Shown here in pieces: positions 13,601-26,008 of a stretch of 64,000 nt of DNA. The position numbers and the translations under genes were made by a program. The notes beneath the pieces were generated by a model. The model was given only the letters and a program-made list of their open reading frames with translations, was not told the origin of the DNA and made no database searches. The first letter of the stretch is position 1. Each line of letters begins with the position of its first letter. Origin of the DNA: Pseudomonas sp. BN411 (GTDB lineage Bacteria > Pseudomonadota > Gammaproteobacteria > Pseudomonadales > Pseudomonadaceae); assembly GCF_029871235.1 (NCBI RefSeq), contig NZ_SSOM01000073.1, forward strand, positions 368,011 through 432,010, read 5' to 3'.

Positions 13601-14608
13601 ATGCCCCGCCACAGCGTTCTCGCTGCCATCGTCCTGTCCCTGGTCCTGCCGGCTTCGCTGGAAGCCGAAGCCGCCGAATGCCCTTATCCCAAGCCCGTGG
13701 TGCTGGCCGGGCTGAACTGGGAAAGCGGCATGTTCGCCACCGAAGTACTGCGGGTGCTGCTGGAGAAGGGTTACGGCTGCAAGACCGACGTGCTGCCCGG
13801 TAACACCCTGACCATGGAAAACGCGCTGCGGCAGAACGATATCCAGGTAATCGCCGAGCAGTGGGCCGGGCGCAGCGAGCTGTGGCGCAAGGCCGAAGCG
13901 GCCGGTGAAGTCTTCGCCGTCGGCGAGCCGGTGAAGGGCGCCACCGAGGGCTGGTGGGTGCCGGAATACCTGGTGAAAGGGGAGGGCGCGCCCGCTGCCG
14001 GACTGCGCTCGGTCAGCGACCTGCCGCGCTTCAAGGCGCTGTTCAAGGACCCTGAATCCCCCGGCAAGGGCCGTTTCTACAATTGCCCCACCGGCTGGAC
14101 CTGCGAAGGGGTCAACAGCCAGAAGCTCAAGGCCTATGGCCTGGAAGACAGCTACGTGAACTTCCGCACCGGCACCGGCCCGGCGCTGGATGCGGCCATC
14201 AGCTCGGCGATCCGCCAGCAGCAGCCGATTCTCTTCTACTACTGGTCGCCGACCCCGCTGATGGGGCGTTACAAGCTGGTGCAGCTGGAGGAGCCTCCCT
14301 TCGACCAGAAGGCCTGGGAAACCCTGATCGACCCCAACAACCCGAAGCCCATCGGTACCCGTTCGTTGCCGGCGAAGATTTCCATCGGTGTTTCCCGCGA
14401 CCTGCGCGAGAAGGCGCCGGCGTTGGTTCAGGCGTTCTCGAAGGTGGAAATCCCGCTGCCGCTGTTCAACGGCATCCTCGCGCGGATGTCCGAGGAGCAC
14501 GCTGATGCGGGTCCCGTGGCAGATGCCTTCTTCCGTGAGCACCGGGAAATCTGGTCGACCTGGGTGCCTGCGGATGTCGCCCAGCATCTCGATGCTTCCC
14601 TGAAGTGA
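13601..14608 (+). CDS. Orphan ABC substrate-binding protein, HutX paralogue
   Basis: A 335-residue periplasmic protein (signal peptide about residues 1-25) of the OpuAC/ProX quaternary-amine type. It is clearly paralogous to HutX at 19742: both carry AGLNWESGM, NGYGC/KGYGC, GTGPALDAA and PILFYYWSPTPLMG. It has roughly 25-30 extra residues after the LVQLEE segment (EPPFDQKAWETLIDPNNPKP and beyond) that HutX lacks. No permease or ATPase is adjacent; it may share HutWV. It lies between hutD and hutU and ends at its own hairpin (14634-14663). The ligand is not determinable, though histidine, urocanate or a betaine are likely candidates. Confidence 0.85.
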   Translation: MPRHSVLAAIVLSLVLPASLEAEAAECPYPKPVVLAGLNWESGMFATEVLRVLLEKGYGCKTDVLPGNTLTMENALRQNDIQVIAEQWAGRSELWRKAEAAGEVFAVGEPVKGATEGWWVPEYLVKGEGAPAAGLRSVSDLPRFKALFKDPESPGKGRFYNCPTGWTCEGVNSQKLKAYGLEDSYVNFRTGTGPALDAAISSAIRQQQPILFYYWSPTPLMGRYKLVQLEEPPFDQKAWETLIDPNNPKPIGTRSLPAKISIGVSRDLREKAPALVQAFSKVEIPLPLFNGILARMSEEHADAGPVADAFFREHREIWSTWVPADVAQHLDASLK

Positions 14609-14899: not shown

Positions 14900-16570
14900 A
14901 TGACCAAATTCCGTGACACCGAAATCCGCGCCCCGCGTGGCAACAAGCTGAACGCCAAGAGCTGGCTGACCGAAGCGCCGCTGCGCATGCTGATGAACAA
15001 CCTCGACCCCGAGGTGGCGGAGAATCCGAAGGAACTGGTGGTCTACGGCGGCATCGGTCGCGCGGCGCGCAACTGGGAGTGCTACGACAAGATCGTCGAG
15101 ACCCTGAAAGAGCTGAACGAAGACGAAACCCTGCTGGTGCAGTCCGGCAAGCCGGTCGGCGTGTTCAAGACCCACGCCAACGCCCCGCGCGTGCTGATCG
15201 CCAACTCCAACCTGGTGCCGCATTGGGCCACCTGGGAACACTTCAACGAGCTGGACGCCAAGGGCCTGGCCATGTACGGCCAGATGACCGCCGGCAGCTG
15301 GATCTACATCGGCAGCCAGGGCATCGTCCAGGGCACCTATGAAACCTTCGTCGAGGCAGGCCGCCAGCACTACAACGGCAACCTGACCGGCAAGTGGGTC
15401 CTGACCGCGGGCCTCGGCGGCATGGGCGGCGCCCAGCCCCTGGCCGCGACCCTGGCCGGCGCCTGCTCGCTGAACATCGAATGCCAGCAGACCAGCATCG
15501 ACTTCCGTCTGCGCAGCCGCTATGTCGACGAGCAGGCCACCGACCTGGACGACGCCCTGGCGCGCATTGCCAAGTACACCCGCGAGGGCAAGGCGATCTC
15601 CATCGCCCTGCTGGGCAACGCTGCTGAAATCCTGCCGGAGCTGGTGCGCCGTGGCGTACGCCCGGACATGGTCACTGACCAGACCAGCGCCCACGACCCG
15701 CTGAACGGTTACCTGCCGATCGGCTGGACCTGGGAGCAGTACCGCGACCGCGCTCAGACCGAACCGGCTGCAGTGGTCAAGGCCGCGAAGCAGTCCATGG
15801 CTGTGCATGTACAGGCCATGCTGGACTTCCAGAAGGCCGGCGTCCCGACCTTCGACTACGGCAACAACATCCGCCAGATGGCCAAGGAAGAGGGCGTGGC
15901 CAACGCTTTCGACTTCCCCGGCTTCGTTCCGGCCTACATCCGCCCGCTGTTCTGTCGCGGCATCGGCCCGTTCCGTTGGGCTGCCCTGTCCGGTGATCCG
16001 CAGGACATCTACAAGACCGACGCCAAGGTCAAGGAACTGATCCCGGACGACGCCCACCTGCACCGCTGGCTGGACATGGCCCGCGAGCGCATCAGCTTCC
16101 AGGGCCTGCCGGCACGTATCTGCTGGGTTGGTCTGGGCCTGCGCGCCAAGCTCGGCCTGGCTTTCAACGAAATGGTCCGCAGCGGCGAACTGTCCGCCCC
16201 GATCGTCATCGGTCGCGACCACCTGGACTCCGGCTCGGTATCCAGCCCGAACCGCGAAACCGAAGCCATGCAGGACGGTTCCGATGCCGTTTCCGACTGG
16301 CCGCTGCTCAACGCCCTGCTGAACACCGCCAGCGGTGCCACCTGGGTGTCGCTGCACCACGGCGGCGGTGTGGGCATGGGCTTCTCCCAGCACTCGGGCA
16401 TGGTGATCGTCTGCGACGGCACCGACGAAGCCGCCGCGCGCATCGCCCGCGTGCTGACCAACGACCCTGGCACCGGCGTGATGCGTCATGCCGATGCCGG
16501 TTACCAGATCGCCATAGACTGCGCTCGTGAGCAGGGCCTGAACCTGCCGATGATTGGCAAAGGAGCCTGA
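14900..16570 (+). CDS. hutU: Urocanate hydratase
   Basis: This 556-residue NAD-dependent enzyme converts urocanate to 4-imidazolone-5-propanoate, the second step of histidine breakdown. Recognisable family segments include [40 protein letters not shown] (dinucleotide-binding, about 169-181), the catalytic-Cys region [20 protein letters not shown] near 350, and [15 protein letters not shown] near the C-terminus. Length is standard. ATG at 14900 has GAGGAG eight bases upstream. It is the first gene of the main hut operon and ends two bases before hutH. Confidence 0.98.
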
Positions 16571-16572
16571 GT

Positions 16573-18105
16573 GTGAATTCGCTGAACCTCAAACCCGGAA
16601 CCCTGACCCTGGCGCAACTGCGCCAGGCCTTCCACGCCCCCGTGCGCGTGGCCCTGGATGCCAGCGCCGGTGCGGCCATCGATGCCAGCGTCGCCTGCGT
16701 CGAGAACATCATTGCCGAAGGCCGCACCGCTTACGGCATCAACACCGGTTTCGGCCTGCTGGCTTCGACCCGCATCGCCCCGGCCGACCTGGAAAAGCTG
16801 CAGCGTTCGCTGGTGCTGTCCCACGCCGCCGGTGTCGGCGAAGCGCTGGATGACGCCATGGTGCGTCTGATCATGCTGCTGAAGGTGAACAGCCTGGCCC
16901 GCGGCTTCTCCGGCATTCGCCGCAAGGTGATCGACGCCCTGGTGGCGCTGATCAACGCCGAGGTCTATCCGCACATCCCGCTGAAGGGCTCGGTGGGCGC
17001 CTCCGGCGACCTGGCACCGCTCGCGCACATGTCCCTGCTGCTGCTGGGCGAGAGCAAGGCCCGTCACAAGGGCCAGTGGCTGCCGGCCACCGAGGCCCTG
17101 GCGATTGCCGGCCTGGAGCCGCTGACCCTGGCCGCGAAGGAGGGCCTGGCCCTGCTCAACGGCACCCAGGTTTCCACCGCCTACGCCCTGCGCGGCCTGT
17201 TCGAGGCCGAGGACCTGTTCGCCGGCGCCACCGTCTGCGGCGGCCTCAGCGTCGAAGCCATGCTCGGCTCCCGCTCGCCCTTCGACGCGCGCATCCATCT
17301 GGCCCGTGGCCAGCGCGGCCAGATCGATGTCGCCGCTGCCTACCGCGACCTGCTCACCGCCAGCAGCGAGATCGCCCGTTCCCACGAGAAGTGCGACAAG
17401 GTGCAGGACCCGTACTCCCTGCGCTGCCAGCCGCAAGTCATGGGTGCCTGCCTGACCCAGTTGCGCCAGGCTGCCGAGGTGCTGGAGATCGAATCCAACG
17501 CGGTATCCGACAACCCGCTGGTGTTCGCCGAAGAGGGCGATGTGATCTCCGGCGGCAACTTCCACGCCGAGCCGGTGGCCATGGCTGCTGACAACCTGGC
17601 GCTGGCCATCGCGGAGATCGGCTCGCTGTCCGAGCGCCGTATCTCGCTGATGATGGACATGCACATGTCCCAGCTGCCGCCCTTCCTGGTGGAGAACGGC
17701 GGGGTCAACTCCGGCTTCATGATCGCCCAGGTCACCGCCGCCGCCCTGGCCAGCGACAACAAGGCCCTGGCCCATCCGGCCAGCGTCGACAGCCTGCCCA
17801 CCTCGGCCAACCAGGAAGACCACGTGTCCATGGCGCCGAACGCCGGCAAGCGCCTCTGGGCCATGGCAGACAACGTGCGCGGCATCCTCGCCATCGAATG
17901 GCTGGGCGCCTGCCAGGGCCTGGACTTCCGTGAGGGCCTGAAGAGCTCGCCGAAGCTGGAAGAAGCCCGTGGCCTGCTGCGCGCCAAGGTTCCCTACTAC
18001 CAGGAAGACCGCTTCTTCGCGCCGGACATCGAGACCGCCAGCGACCTGCTCGCCAGCGGCTGCCTGAACGCACTCGTACCGGTGGGCCTGCTGCCCAGCT
18101 TCTGA
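16573..18105 (+). CDS. hutH: Histidine ammonia-lyase
   Basis: A 510-residue enzyme that deaminates L-histidine to urocanate. The MIO-forming triad Ala143-Ser144-Gly145 is intact in [15 protein letters not shown]. Other active-site residues are present: Tyr54 ([10 protein letters not shown]), Asn of LLNGTQ, Gln and Tyr in VQDPYSLRC, and Glu in [11 protein letters not shown] at 16573 follows hutU by two bases; GGAGCCTGAGT upstream supplies the ribosome binding site. This is the functional histidase of the locus, unlike the MIO-less paralogue at 22475. A strong hairpin (18113-18138) follows. Confidence 0.98.
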
Positions 18106-19630: not shown

Positions 19631-19636
19631 GTGGAG

Positions 19637-19644
19637 AACAAGAA
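19637..19644 (+). promoter_or_regulatory. Possible Crc motif upstream of hutX
   Basis: AACAAGAA matches AANAANAA but lies about 98 bases before the hutX start, separated by a hairpin, so it is a weaker candidate than the hutT site. Confidence 0.25.
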
Positions 19645-19662
19645 AAGCGCCAGTCACTGGCA

Positions 19663-19690
19663 GCGACCGCCGGCCAGTGCCGGTGGTCGC
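19663..19690 (+). other. Second hairpin upstream of hutX
   Basis: GCGACCGCCGGC (19663-19674) pairs with GCCGGTGGTCGC (19679-19690) with one G-T wobble and a four-base loop. With the 19609 hairpin it forms a structured leader before hutX that may stabilise the binding-protein message. Confidence 0.6.
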
Positions 19691-19741
19691 CCCCGATTGA
19701 ACTGCCCTAATCCTCTTACCAAGTTTCAGGAGCGTCGGAAC

Positions 19742-20710
19742 ATGCAATTCAAGAAGCGAGTGTTGAGCCTCATGTGTGCGGCGGGTCTGCTGGCTGGAGC
19801 GGCTTCCGCCCAGGCGGCGGGCTGGTGCGAATCCGGCAAGCCGGTGAAGTTCGCCGGACTCAACTGGGAAAGCGGCATGCTGCTCACCGACGTGCTGCAA
19901 CTGGTGCTGAAGAACGGTTACGGCTGCGAGACCGACAGCCTGCCGGGCAACTCCATCACCATGGAACAAGCCCTTGGCAATAACGATATCCAGATATTCG
20001 CCGAGGAATGGATCGGCCGTAGCGACGCCTGGAACAAGGCCGCCACCGCCGGCAAGGTGGTGGGCGTGGGCGCACCGATCGTCGGCGCCACCGAAGGCTG
20101 GTACGTGCCGCGTTATGTGATCGAGGGCGACGCCAAGCGTGGCATCGAGGCCAAGGCGCCGCAGCTCAAGGCCATCGCCGACCTCGGCCAGTACGCCGAA
20201 CTGTTCCGCGATCCGGAGGAGCCGGGCAAGGGCCGCTTCTACAACTGCCCGGCTGGCTGGACCTGCGAGCTGGACAACTCCGAAATGCTGAAGAGCTACG
20301 GCCTGGAAGAGAAGTTCACCAACTTCCGCCCGGGCACCGGCCCGGCCCTGGATGCGGCCGTGTTGTCGAGCTATCGCCGTGGCGAGCCTATCCTTTTCTA
20401 TTACTGGTCGCCGACGCCGCTGATGGGTCAGGCGGACCTGGTCAAGCTGGAGGAGAAGCCCGGCGTGGACAAGAGCGTGACCATCCAGGTCGGCCTGTCC
20501 AAGACCTTCCATGACGAGGCCCCGGAACTGGTGGCCGTGCTGGAGAAGGTCAACCTGCCGATCGACCTGCTGAACCAGAACCTGGCGAAGATGGCCAAAG
20601 AGAAGATGGATTCGGCGGACCTGGCCAAGGTCTTCCTCAAGGAACACCCGGAAGTGTGGCGCGCCTGGGTTAGCGAAGACGCGGCGAAGAAGATCGAAGC
20701 CGCCCTCTGA
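19742..20710 (+). CDS. hutX: Histidine ABC transporter substrate-binding protein HutX
   Basis: A 322-residue periplasmic binding protein with a clear signal peptide (LMCAAGLLAGAASAQAAG, mature from about residue 24). It belongs to the glycine-betaine/quaternary-amine binding family that in the hut locus takes up histidine. Motifs shared with the orphan at 13601 include LNWESGM, PGNSITME, WYVPRYVIEGD, FYNCPAGWTCE and FYYWSPTPLMG. ATG 19742 is preferred to an in-frame ATG at 19631, since the latter would put the signal peptide inside the protein. hutW and hutV follow, completing the transporter. Confidence 0.92.
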   Translation: MQFKKRVLSLMCAAGLLAGAASAQAAGWCESGKPVKFAGLNWESGMLLTDVLQLVLKNGYGCETDSLPGNSITMEQALGNNDIQIFAEEWIGRSDAWNKAATAGKVVGVGAPIVGATEGWYVPRYVIEGDAKRGIEAKAPQLKAIADLGQYAELFRDPEEPGKGRFYNCPAGWTCELDNSEMLKSYGLEEKFTNFRPGTGPALDAAVLSSYRRGEPILFYYWSPTPLMGQADLVKLEEKPGVDKSVTIQVGLSKTFHDEAPELVAVLEKVNLPIDLLNQNLAKMAKEKMDSADLAKVFLKEHPEVWRAWVSEDAAKKIEAAL

Positions 20711-20784: not shown

Positions 20785-21632
20785 ATGTTCCCTGAACGCT
20801 TCACCTTTTCCATCGCCGACTGGGTCAACGGCTGGGTCGACAGCCTGGTGACCAACTACGGCGACGTGTTCCGCCACATCTCCGACACCCTGCTCTACGC
20901 CATCGTCTACCTCGAAGGCCTGCTGCGTGCCACGCCCTGGTGGCTGGTGCTGATCGTGGTCGCCGGGATTGCCTGGCATGCCACCCGGCGCATCCTGCCG
21001 ACGGTGGTGATCACCGGCCTGTTGTTCCTGGTGGGCGCCGTCGGCCTCTGGGACAAGCTGATGCAGACCGTCGCGCTGATGCTGGTGGCCACCTTCATCT
21101 CGGTGCTGATCGGCATTCCGCTGGGCATTCTCGCGGCCCGCAGCAATCGTCTGCGCGCGGTGCTGATGCCGCTGCTGGACATCATGCAGACCATGCCCAG
21201 CTTCGTGTACCTGATCCCGGTGCTGATGCTCTTCGGCCTGGGCAAGGTGCCGGCCATCTTCGCCACCGTGATCTACGCCGCGCCGCCGCTGATCCGCCTG
21301 ACCGACCTCGGCATCCGCCAGGTTGACGGCGAGGTGATGGAAGCCATCAACGCCTTCGGCGCCAACCGCTGGCAGCAGCTGTTCGGCGTGCAGTTGCCGC
21401 TGGCCATGCCGAGCATCATGGCCGGCATCAACCAGACCACCATGATGGCCCTGTCGATGGTGGTGATCGCGTCCATGATCGGCGCCCGTGGCCTCGGTGA
21501 GGACGTCCTGGTGGGCATCCAGACTCTCAACGTCGGCAAGGGCCTCGAAGCGGGCCTGGCCATCGTCATCCTGGCCGTGGTCTTCGACCGCATCACCCAG
21601 GCTTACGGCCGTTCGCGGCACGCAGCCAGCAA

Positions 21633-21636
<4 letters not shown>
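20785..21636 (+). CDS. hutW: Histidine ABC transporter permease HutW
   Basis: A 283-residue inner-membrane permease of the ProW/OpuAB type. Several transmembrane segments surround the binding-protein-dependent transport motif EAINAFGANRWQQLFGVQLPLA (EAA-x3-G-like, about residues 188-209), which contacts the HutV ATPase. The sequence LMPLLDIMQTMPSFVYLIPV is typical of quaternary-amine permeases. Its stop overlaps the hutV start (ATGA at 21633). ATG at 20785 has GGAGCG upstream. Confidence 0.93.
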
Positions 21637-22463
<827 letters not shown>

Positions 22464-22474
22464 GGAACAGCTGA

Positions 22475-24007
22475 ATGTCGTTACCTGAGAAAGTCCTGCT
22501 GGGCGATTCGCCGTTGAACTGGCGCCAGGTGGTGGCCGTGGCTCGCCACGGCGCGCGCCTGGAGCTGACGCCGTCGGCCTGGGCGCGCATCGACAACGCC
22601 CGGGGCATCGTCGAGCGGATCGTCGAGCGGGGCGAGCGCGCCTACGGGATCAGCACCGGTCTTGGCGCACTCAGTGAAGTCGTGCTGACCGCTGAGCAGT
22701 TCGCCACGCTGTCGCGCAACACCCTGCTCAGCCATGCCTGCGGCGTTGGTCCGGTGCTGGCCGACGAGCAGACCCGCGCCATCATCTGCTGTGCTATCGC
22801 CAATTACAGCCACGGCCGCTCCGGCGTGCAGCGGCAGGTGGTGGAAGCACTGCTGGCGCTGCTGGAGCGCGGCATCACCCCACAGGTGCCGTCCCAAGGG
22901 TCGGTGGGCTACCTCACTCACATGGCCCACGTCGGCATCGCCCTGCTCGGCGTTGGCGAAGTGAGCTATCGCGGTCGGGTGGTATCCGCCGCCGAAGCGC
23001 TGGCCGCCGAAGGCCTCCAGCCAGTGAAACTGGGCGCTAAGGACGGGCTCTGCCTGGTCAACGGCCTGCCCTGCATGACCGGCCTGACTTGCCTGGCCCT
23101 GGACGACGCGGAACGCCTGATGCGCTGGGCCGACGTGATCGGCGCCATGAGTTTCGAAGCCCTGCGCGGACAGATCGCCGCCTTCGATCCGGACATCATC
23201 GCCCTCAAGCCGTACCCCGGCGTGCAGGCGGTGGGCGCCAACCTGCTGGCCCTGCTGGCCGGTAGTGAAGTGGTCGCCGAAAGTCGCGGCATCCGCACGC
23301 AGGACGCGCTCAGCATTCGCTCCATTCCCCAGGTGCACGGTGCCTGCCGTGATCAGCTGGCCCATGCCGCGAAGCAGGTGGATACCGAACTGGCGTCGGC
23401 CAACGACAACCCCCTGCTGCTGGGGACCCCGGACAGTTACAAGGTCGTCTCCCAGGCCAACCCCCACGGCGAATCGGTCGCCATGGCGGCGGACCTGCTG
23501 GCGATTGCGGTGGCCGAGCTTGGCGGCATTGCCGAACGCCGCCTGGATCGCCTCGTCAACCCGCTGGTCAGTGGCCTGCCGGCGTTCCTGGTAGGCCAGC
23601 CCGGGGTCAATTCGGGGATGATGATCGCCCAGTACGTCGCCGCTGCCCTGGTCGGGGAAAACCGTCAGCTGGCGCAGCCGGCCGTTGTGGATAACTTCGT
23701 CACCTCCGGATTGCAGGAAGACCACCTGAGTCTCGGCACCAATGCCGCCCTCAAGCTGGGCAAGGCGGTGGAGAACTGCCGCCGAATCCTTGCCATCGAA
23801 TATCTGTTTGCCGCCCAGGCTTTCGAGTTCCACAAGCCGAGGGGCTTCGGTGCTGGCACAACGGCTGCGTGGGAAACCCTGCGCGAGCACGTGCCGGCTT
23901 ATGACCAGGACCGCTGGCTGGCACCGGATATCGCCCGTGCCGCCGACCTGCTGCGTGACGGTGCTGCGCTGGAAGGGATTTCCGTTCGCACCGGAGGCCT
24001 GCAATGA
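22475..24007 (+). CDS. HutH-like aromatic amino-acid lyase paralogue lacking the MIO triad
   Basis: A 510-residue protein homologous along its whole length to HutH at 16573, but the segment that should read [15 protein letters not shown] reads GSVG-YLTHM (residues 142-150). The Ala-Ser-Gly that cyclises to the MIO electrophile is therefore gone, and the loop is six residues shorter with the frame intact. The QDPYSLR motif has become QDALSIR (276-282), losing the active-site Tyr. Tyr57, Asn196, Arg282 and Glu415 equivalents remain. A normal lyase reaction is not expected. It could be a non-catalytic partner, regulator or an enzyme with other chemistry. It is flanked tightly by hutV (11 bases) and hutI (ATGA overlap), so it is expressed with the pathway. 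A HAL-like gene is, from memory, also at this position in P. aeruginosa. Confidence 0.88.
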
Positions 24008-25212
24008 AACACCTCTGGCACAACTGCCACGCCGCTACGATGCAAGGCGGCAAGTACTCGATCATCGAAGACGCGGTGCTGCTGACCTACGCCGGGCGCA
24101 TCGAGTGGATCGGCCCACGTGCCGAACTGCCGTCGATCCCCTATGACGTGGAAGTCGACCTCAATGGCGCCTGGGTCACTCCGGGGCTGATCGACTGCCA
24201 TACCCACCTGGTGTTCGGTGGCGACCGCAGCCGCGAGTTCGAGCAGCGCCTGGAAGGCGTCAGCTACGCCGAGATCGCTGCCCAGGGCGGCGGTATCGCC
24301 AGCACCGTCCGCGCTACCCGTGAAGCCAGTGAGGACGAGCTGCTGGAGAGCGCCACCCGCCGCGCCCGCCAGTTGCTGCGTGACGGCGTGACCACCCTGG
24401 AGGTGAAATCCGGCTACGGCCTGGACCTGGCCAGCGAGCGCAAGATGTTGCGGGTCGCGCGGCGCCTGGGCGAGACCCTGCCGATCACCGTACGCGCCAC
24501 CTGCCTGGCGGCTCACGCCCTGCCGCCGGAGTACGCCGGCCGCGCCGATGATTACATCGACCACATCTGCCGCGAGATGCTGCCGGCCCTGGCCAATGAG
24601 GGCCTGGTGGACGCGGTGGACGCCTTCTGCGAGCACCTGGCGTTTTCCCCGGCCCAGGTGGAGCGGGTGTTCAAGGCGGCCCGCGAACTGGCCCTGCCGG
24701 TGAAGCTGCATGCCGAGCAGCTGTCTTCCCTGCATGGCTCCAGCCTGGCAGCACGCTATCAGGCGCTGTCGGCGGACCACCTGGAATACATGACCGAGGA
24801 CGATGCCATCGCCATGGCCGCCTCGGGCACCGTCGCCGTGCTGCTGCCCGGCGCCTTCTTCCTGCTGCGGGAAACCCAGCTGCCGCCCATCGATGCCCTG
24901 CGCAAGCACGGCGTGGCAATGGCGGTGTCGACCGATCTCAACCCTGGCACTTCGCCCGCGCTTTCCTTGCGGATGATGCTGAACATGGCCTGCACCTCCT
25001 TCCGCCTGACCCCGGAAGAAGCGCTGGCCGGCGCCACCCTGCATGCTGCCAAGGCCCTCGGCCTGGCCGGCAGCCACGGCAGCCTGGAGGCGGGCAAGGT
25101 GGCCGACTTCATCGCCTGGGACATCCAGCGCCCGGCAGAACTCGCATACTGGCTGGGTGGCGACCTGCCCAAGCGGGTGATTCGACACGGACAGGAGATC
25201 GACTGTGGATAA
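24004..25212 (+). CDS. hutI: Imidazolonepropionase
   Basis: A 402-residue metal-dependent amidohydrolase that opens imidazolone-5-propanoate to N-formimino-L-glutamate. Key segments are [17 protein letters not shown] with the HTH metal ligands (about residues 66-68), [33 protein letters not shown] (third His), and [10 protein letters not shown] with the Asp ligand (about 311). It overlaps the upstream HutH-like gene (ATGA) and downstream hutG (eight bases), placing it firmly in the operon. Length is standard. Confidence 0.97.
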
Positions 25213-26008
25213 CGTTCTCTCATTCAGCCGCGGCAACGTGCCGCTGCTGATCAGCATGCCGCATCCCGGCACCCTGCTGACCCCGGCGGTGGAAGCCGGA
25301 ATGGTGGAAGCCGGCTGGGACCTCACCGATACCGACTGGCACATCCCGCGCCTTTACGATTTCGCCGGCGAACTGGGGGCGAGCACCCTGGCGGCGCAGT
25401 ACTCGCGCTATGTCATCGACCTCAACCGCCCGGCCGACGACAAGCCGCTCTATGCCACCGCCACCACCGGCCTGTACCCGTCGACCCTGTTCGATGGCGA
25501 CCCCCTCTACCACGAAGGCGAGGAGCCCTCGTCGGCGGAGCGGGCGCGCTACCTGGCGGACATCTGGACGCCCTATCACCAGACCATCAGCGATGAGCTG
25601 GCGCGGATGAAGGCCGAGTTCGGCTACGCCATGCTGTTCGACGCCCACTCCATCCGTTCCTTCGTCCCGCGTCTGTTCGATGGCCGCTTGCCGGACTTCA
25701 ACCTCGGCACCAACGCCGGCGCCAGTTGCGATCCGGGCCTGGCCGATGCCCTGGTGGCAGTTTGCGCCGAGGCGGAGGACTACAGCCACGTGCTCAATGG
25801 CCGCTTCAAGGGCGGCCACATCACCCGTCACTACGGCCAGCCGGACCAGCACATCCATGCCGTCCAGCTGGAGCTGGCGCAATGCACCTACATGGATGAG
25901 CAGGTGCCCTTCGACTATCGCGAAGACCTCGCGGTGCCGACCCAGGCCGTGCTGAATCGCTTGCTGCAGGCGATGTTGGAGTGGGGTCAGCAGCGCTACG
26001 GCCGCTGA
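25205..26008 (+). CDS. hutG: N-formylglutamate deformylase
   Basis: A 267-residue zinc amidohydrolase that converts N-formyl-L-glutamate to glutamate and formate, the last step of the HutF-dependent route. Typical segments are [21 protein letters not shown] (metal-binding DAHS), [11 protein letters not shown] and [14 protein letters not shown] at 25205 overlaps the hutI stop by eight bases and has GGAGATCG upstream. It ends the hut operon and is convergent with the hydrolase at 26045. Confidence 0.96.

Follow-up and report, generated by a model that had tools for sequence, protein, structure and literature searches.

A HutH paralogue without the MIO triad in the hut operon of Pseudomonas sp. 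BN411, a proposed hercynine trimethylamine-lyase

The hut operon of the analysed window (a 64,000-nucleotide stretch of the Pseudomonas sp. BN411 genome) encodes, besides its canonical histidine ammonia-lyase (HutH), a paralogue of 510 amino acids (22475..24007, forward strand) that has lost the Ala-Ser-Gly (ASG) triad forming the MIO cofactor. Judged from its sequence and context, this protein, referred to here as the YLTH lyase, is probably a MIO-free lyase that converts hercynine (histidine betaine, N-alpha-trimethyl-L-histidine) to urocanate and trimethylamine, resembling ergothionase but belonging to a separate lineage. The latter enzyme is described, in the accessible part of its source, as a trimethylamine lyase of the HAL family that lacks MIO (PMC13405746). 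The loss of MIO, the retained pocket, the clade, the linkage to a transporter and to hutC and the Trp set of the binding protein HutX were observed directly, and the substrate, leaving group and catalysis of the YLTH lyase are inferred.

The open reading frame of the YLTH lyase is intact, with correct start and stop codons, and its product matches PF00221 across the whole profile (1-466, 548 bits). It aligns with the canonical HutH of the window (16573..18105, forward strand), which carries the ASG triad and Tyr280, at 41% identity. The NCBIfam hutH equivalog model barely accepts it (542.2 bits against a cut-off of 539.15), which would explain the annotation of its relatives as 'hutH'. Only 11 bases separate the gene from the end of hutV at 22463, and hutI, starting at 24004, overlaps its 3' end by four bases, in agreement with an earlier note on this DNA that placed it tightly packed between these two genes. 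Also encoded on the forward strand are the urocanase HutU (14900..16570), the imidazolonepropionase HutI (24004..25212) and the N-formylglutamate deformylase HutG (25205..26008), names that are backed by similarity to annotated hutU, hutI and hutG, together with HutX, a substrate-binding protein of the OpuAC (glycine-betaine) type (19631..20710, likely start 19739), the ABC permease HutW (20785..21636) and the ABC ATPase HutV (21633..22463). Urocanate arising from either lyase would be consumed by HutU.

The central claim of the earlier note, a HutH paralogue devoid of the MIO triad, was borne out, the ASG motif being absent, the PF00221 match full-length and the coordinates, length, start and stop right. 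In place of the triad region ASGDLAP, codons 146-149 (22910..22921, forward strand) encode Tyr-Leu-Thr-His. The loop was said to have lost six residues, but it aligns as a stretch of 12 residues against 15 in HutH, a net loss of three; the total length nevertheless equals that of HutH (510) because of other indels. The replacement of QDPYSLR by QDALSIR (residues 276-282, 23300..23320, forward strand), with loss of the active-site Tyr, was confirmed: Gln and Arg are kept and HAL Tyr280 is replaced by Leu279.

Equivalents of the histidine- and carboxylate-binding residues His83, Arg283, Met382 and Glu414 are present in the YLTH lyase, the roles of HAL residues being those described in published work on P. 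putida HAL. Twenty clade rows found by search, without selection on a motif, were aligned with the window HutH, and in this alignment HAL Tyr53, His83, Asn195, Gln277, Arg283, Met382, Gln413 and Glu414 all have invariant equivalents. A larger comparison drew on 144 clade and 64 HutH rows, all distinct (n = 145 and 65, as the window proteins were counted twice). These rows had been selected on the loop and on the YG and QD motifs, which fixes the loop, Tyr53, Gln277 and Tyr280 columns by construction and leaves the others free. In this set, His83, Asn195, Arg283, Gln413 and Glu414 are kept in 145/145 clade rows and Met382 in 144/145, the single exception being Gln in an Agrobacterium pAt protein. 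The Phe329 position holds Pro (49) or Ala (96) in the clade (n = 145) and the Asn412 position holds Leu in 144/145. Position 387 (Tyr387 of the window protein, 23633..23635, forward strand) is Tyr in 144/145 clade rows, Val in 64/65 HutH rows and Lys in the ergothionase of T. denticola. At position 280 an unfiltered alignment shows Leu in all clade rows, in ergothionase and in its two relatives, and Tyr in all HutH rows. By this column comparison of clade against HutH rows, the clade proteins retain the imidazole and carboxylate ends of a histidine pocket but have a remodelled amine end.

The occurrence of the gene was assessed in 148 Pseudomonadaceae genomes, of which 108 have some match and 45 a match at 61% identity or more. 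None of the 42 orthologues read from these 45 (G128, G137 and G142 being left out) carries ASG. The 30 best, window included, all have GSVGYLTHM, and twelve further ones share the same deletion, with GSVGYLSHM as a variant in G098. One stop codon was counted inside the matched stretch in 2/45 orthologues (G083 and G005). Compared with ten related genomes, dN/dS is 0.052-0.127 for the YLTH lyase and 0.031-0.136 for HutH, and the YLTH lyase is thus under purifying selection, like HutH. The check proposed earlier, on whether the loop is conserved under such selection, gave a positive answer, and orthologues with a normal ASG triad, named there as contrary evidence, did not occur among 42 of the 45. 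The protein accordingly stands as a stable non-MIO member of the HutH family, with one conserved lineage and low dN/dS, as had been claimed. Decay and sequencing error were ruled out by the 42/45 orthologues without ASG and the dN/dS of 0.05-0.13. As a separate observation, dS between the window and G062 (L139) is 0.49 for the YLTH lyase against 0.11-0.23 for nine other genes of the hut region, which suggests local recombination at this gene in that pair.

Relatives were also found in Erwinia, Rhizobium, Sinorhizobium, Agrobacterium, Aminobacter, Burkholderia, Aureimonas, Roseateles, Paraburkholderia, Thalassospira and others. A phylum-wide sample contained 23 genomes out of 398 matching an Agrobacterium member at E <= 1e-100, ten of these 23 being Pseudomonadaceae. 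A class-wide search at E <= 1e-120 recovered the window genome as sole carrier among 274 genomes, which makes carriers rare in that sample beyond the Pseudomonadaceae; a different sample did contain further carriers of the same class.

In a tree built without the loop and position 280, 29 members of the YLTH clade, which extends to Erwinia, Rhizobiaceae and Burkholderiaceae, group together (SH-aLRT 100), and the T. denticola ergothionase forms a separate group with its two relatives (SH-aLRT 99). Plain orthology to ergothionase was rejected in view of this separation. Parsimony gives two changes of MIO state, a count that is provisional because the tree is a quick one of 53 rows chosen from 113 plus extras, in which the ergothionase branch is very long (2.79, with a long-branch warning). 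Two small groups whose loops show a comparable deletion (GSVGYLGPEGH in one, GSVGYLIATAH in the other) adjoin the clade with weaker support (86-91). The first motif occurs in a MIO-less HutH-like subfamily of Pseudomonadaceae (L050, L051, L052) that keeps Tyr280 and Phe329 and whose gene lies directly 3' of a polar-amino-acid ABC transporter. The second occurs, with Leu at 280, in a Klebsiella pneumoniae plasmid protein (L040:4989-6521) neighboured by an OpuAC-type ABC transporter, hutC, hutD, a formimidoylglutamate deiminase gene and hutU; Klebsiella makes up 226 of the 895 plasmid records with some HutH-family match, of which only L040 was read. Four further lyases (L131, L133, L134, L136) bear MIO together with QDRYSLR, and the three included in the tree (all save L136) lie on a long branch away from HutH.

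The HutX of the window belongs to Pfam OpuAC (212 bits), and in the PDB it is most similar to glycine betaine/proline binding proteins. The Trp residues of its AEEW, PAGW and YYW motifs correspond in alignment to the ligand-binding Trp65, Trp140 and Trp188 of ProX, and this set is kept in 23/23 of the partner binding proteins compared, those more than 50% identical to the reference. By its OpuAC assignment and Trp box, HutXWV is predicted to be an ABC transporter of the quaternary-ammonium type serving betaine uptake. Of the 148 genomes, 40 have both a HutX orthologue (at 80% or more) and the lyase, 5 the lyase only, 1 HutX only and 102 neither, a distribution whose Fisher value is overstated as the genomes are related. 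In 4/5 of the lyase-only genomes a polar-amino-acid transporter adjoins the lyase (L044, L045, L046, L049). Ten genomes carry a HutX of 69-73% without the lyase, which counts against a strict dependence between the two; in G091, the one genome of the ten that was inspected, hutI comes directly after hutXWV. A second OpuAC binding-protein gene with the same Trp motifs as HutX lies just upstream of hutU in the window (13601-14608), with no permease or ATPase gene between it and hutU.

At least 584 stretches of species genomes encode relatives, and the best 80 of these were considered as named loci, a set skewed towards the Agrobacterium query and retrieved in part by the loop pattern. Among these best 80 of at least 584, an ABC ATPase gene lies directly upstream of the lyase in 66, of the polar-amino-acid type in 43 and of the betaine type in 23; the other 14 lack it by the strict rule, although L201 and L217 among them do show one. 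In the same set hutC is nearby in 75/80, and 6/80 stretches contain a SolA-like oxidase gene (annotated N-methyl-L-tryptophan oxidase; Pfam DAO). Many Paraburkholderia stretches consist of transporter, lyase and hutC, with no other hut genes of the reference set. The Agrobacterium pAt lyase is neighboured by a second urocanase, a molybdopterin S/N-oxide reductase, an amidohydrolase and a betaine-type transporter, a gene set that looks like a pathway for a ring-modified trimethyl-histidine, in the manner of ergothioneine sulfonate catabolism. Comparison with Pfam of two of 13 recurrent unassigned neighbour families, and of the genes around two MAG loci, gave no hint of a pathway (FGGY kinase, mannitol dehydrogenase, TsaD, aminopeptidase and others). 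In three Rhizobium/Ciceribacter loci (L097, L100, L171) the neighbours are a fatty-acid-desaturase-like protein, a cytochrome c and 2Fe-2S and molybdenum hydroxylase subunits, joined in L100 and L171 by N-carbamoyl/Zn hydrolases; together these may serve to attack the imidazole ring oxidatively.

Some hut operons contain the lyase and no canonical HutH. That of G703 comprises hutC, hutF, hutU, a YLTH-clade lyase, hutI, hutG and an ergothionase-like gene. Its PF00221 proteins are three, namely this lyase, the ergothionase-like protein (GSLGAAD) and a distant protein with an intact ASG triad, 36% identical to HutH, whose group is connected to HutH by a branch of length 3.13 and which may make urocanate. 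As G703 carries both of the first two, these are probably not redundant. In G788 (Pseudogemmobacter humi, L198) the order is hutC, hutF, betaine permease and ATPase, lyase, hutI, hutG, hutU and hutD, and no ASG protein of the PF00221 family was found in this genome; its sole other PF00221 protein (L241) is divergent, with GSVGCGD replacing the MIO triad. Both are draft genomes, with a completeness of 100 for G703 and none given for G788. Four named loci, that of G788 among them, have hutU but no hutH in the stretch, and the other three genomes hold an ASG-bearing HutH elsewhere. An Aureimonas plasmid, searched alone, bears an operon similar to those of G703 and G788.

In the mechanism proposed here, HutXWV would import hercynine. 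Its imidazole would be held by His87, Met383 and Glu415 and its carboxylate by Arg282, as in HutH, Tyr57 (equivalent to HAL Tyr53) would take the beta-proton, and trimethylamine would depart directly from the room created by the absence of MIO and by the changes of Tyr280 to Leu and Phe329 to Pro/Ala. The amine of the substrate would already be primed to leave, and this HAL/PAL-fold enzyme could be MIO-independent because the substrate carries its own leaving group. Urocanate would then enter HutU, HutI and HutG, the operon being induced through HutC. Hercynine as substrate and urocanate as product are suggested by the kept imidazole pocket and the ordinary hut enzymes. Further support comes from the invariance of binding and acid-base equivalents while amine-end positions differ, from Leu at 280 in ergothionase, itself a MIO-less trimethylamine lyase of the family, and from the recurrence of the upstream ATPase (66/80) and hutC (75/80) among the best 80 of at least 584 stretches. 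The OpuAC-type HutX with its ProX-like Trp set, its co-occurrence with the lyase (40 genomes), the operons of G788 and G703, the SolA-like oxidase gene in 6 of those best 80 stretches and the purifying selection point the same way, two of the arguments being slightly weakened by the distant ASG protein of G703 and by the row filter of the larger comparison.

Several observations speak against the hercynine lyase, among them the ten genomes with a HutX of 69-73% and no lyase, the excess of polar-amino-acid (43) over betaine-type transporters (23) among the best 80 of at least 584 and the stop codon counted in G083 and G005. Growth of S. meliloti hutX and hutH2 mutants with histidine as nitrogen source is reportedly reduced by about 30%, which would be consistent with some activity on histidine. 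The P. aeruginosa counterpart of the YLTH lyase is presumably PA5093. A 'hutG' labelled PA5093 is impaired on histidine when deleted, according to the available part of the source, and if the label is right and PA5093 is the YLTH lyase, this contradicts dispensability; the label is either a slip or a contrary result (PMC12772324). Also, HutXWV of P. fluorescens is reported, in the part of that source at hand, to take part in histidine uptake (PMC8871633). No report of a hercynine lyase was found among the open-licence papers listed.

Other substrates were weighed against hercynine. The YLTH lyase may release trimethylamine from another histidine betaine, such as ergothioneine, its sulfonate or another ring-modified form, for which ergothionase is a precedent and the Agrobacterium pAt member, sole row with Gln at Met382 and set amid ring-modification-like genes, is suggestive. 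This is nevertheless unlikely, as Met382 and the imidazole pocket of HutH persist in the remaining rows, with Tyr387 (144/145) at the place of the ergothionase Lys, the window operon holds ordinary hut enzymes only, and G703 has both kinds of protein. An incompletely methylated substrate, N-alpha-methyl- or dimethyl-histidine, from which methylamine or dimethylamine would be released, would suit the SolA-like (Pfam DAO) oxidase in 6/80 and the polar-amino-acid transporters in 43/80 of the best 80 of at least 584 stretches. Primary to tertiary amines are, however, poorer leaving groups without MIO, and the Trp set of HutX is of the quaternary-ammonium type, making this the least probable of the readings.

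L-histidine itself could be the substrate of a second, MIO-independent histidase, given the kept histidine-binding residues, the presence of the gene in the hut operons of G703 and G788, which lack canonical HutH, and the reported growth effect of about 30% for S. meliloti hutH2 on histidine nitrogen; but ammonia is a poor leaving group without MIO. Deletion of P. aeruginosa hutH (PA5098) is reported to impair growth on histidine, which also speaks against a second histidase, and since the deletions are impaired on urocanate too, polar effects are possible (PMC12772324). On balance such an activity is quite unlikely. The earlier note had offered three roles, of which new chemistry fits best. 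The other two, a non-catalytic partner of HutH in mixed tetramers and a sensor of urocanate or histidine, accord with the loss of the defining cofactor and with co-location with HutH in the window and many relatives. The partner role is less favoured because of G788 and G703, which keep the lyase in a hut operon without canonical HutH (one distant ASG protein being present in G703), and of the Paraburkholderia stretches of transporter, lyase and hutC without HutH. The sensor role is less favoured because binding and acid-base residues are all kept, and HutC is reported to respond to urocanate already (PMC8871633). Together these two roles are considered very unlikely.

The preferred reading, a hercynine lyase, would form part of a broader picture to which slightly better than even chances are given: an overlooked, widespread histidine-betaine route, in which dedicated uptake and a MIO-free hercynine lyase annotated as a second histidase feed urocanate into the hut pathway, and in which the rise of trimethylamine-lyase chemistry went along with two or more losses of MIO within the family. 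If true, many proteins called 'histidine ammonia-lyase' would be misnamed, at least 584 stretches encoding relatives, some of which may be ordinary HutH. Hercynine is made by fungi and actinobacteria, and soil and plant-associated bacteria would be an unrecognised sink for it and a further source of trimethylamine. The route would also explain the presence in Pseudomonas hut operons of a hutXWV-hutH1 module that is dispensable for growth on histidine, and would show a family dropping its built-in cofactor when the substrate brings its own leaving group.

The same hutXWV-hutH1 module, in the same position, is present in P. fluorescens SBW25, whose hutH1 is a presumed orthologue by position; the available portion of its source mentions neither MIO loss nor a non-histidine substrate. 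EgtU, a quaternary-amine OpuC-like ABC transporter, is like HutX in having a binding protein of the quaternary-amine type, and its ligand ergothioneine, a trimethyl-histidine, is bound by cation-pi contacts, as described in the part of the source available (PMC9732360). The same partial source presents a Tyr/Phe cage that is specific for ergothioneine and hardly stabilised by hercynine, unlike HutX with its ProX-like Trp set and putative hercynine ligand, and EgtU is thus a loose precedent only for hercynine binding (PMC9732360). Compared with HutH (EC 4.3.1.3; P. putida 1b8f), the YLTH lyase shares family, length, the eight HAL residue equivalents and the operon, and differs in the absence of ASG and MIO, in the changes of Tyr280 to Leu, Phe329 to Pro/Ala and Asn412 to Leu, and in its separate clade. 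Ergothionase (T. denticola, PDB 6s7j/6s7q) differs from the YLTH clade in its loop (SSIGEGD), in having Gly at Met382, Ile at Gln413 and Ser at Asn195, and in its own clade, with Lys at 6s7j chain position 383, presumably catalytic, where 144/145 YLTH rows have Tyr387. Both nevertheless are HAL-family proteins without MIO and with Leu at 280, and trimethylamine is proposed as the leaving group of the YLTH lyase, the same as in ergothionase.
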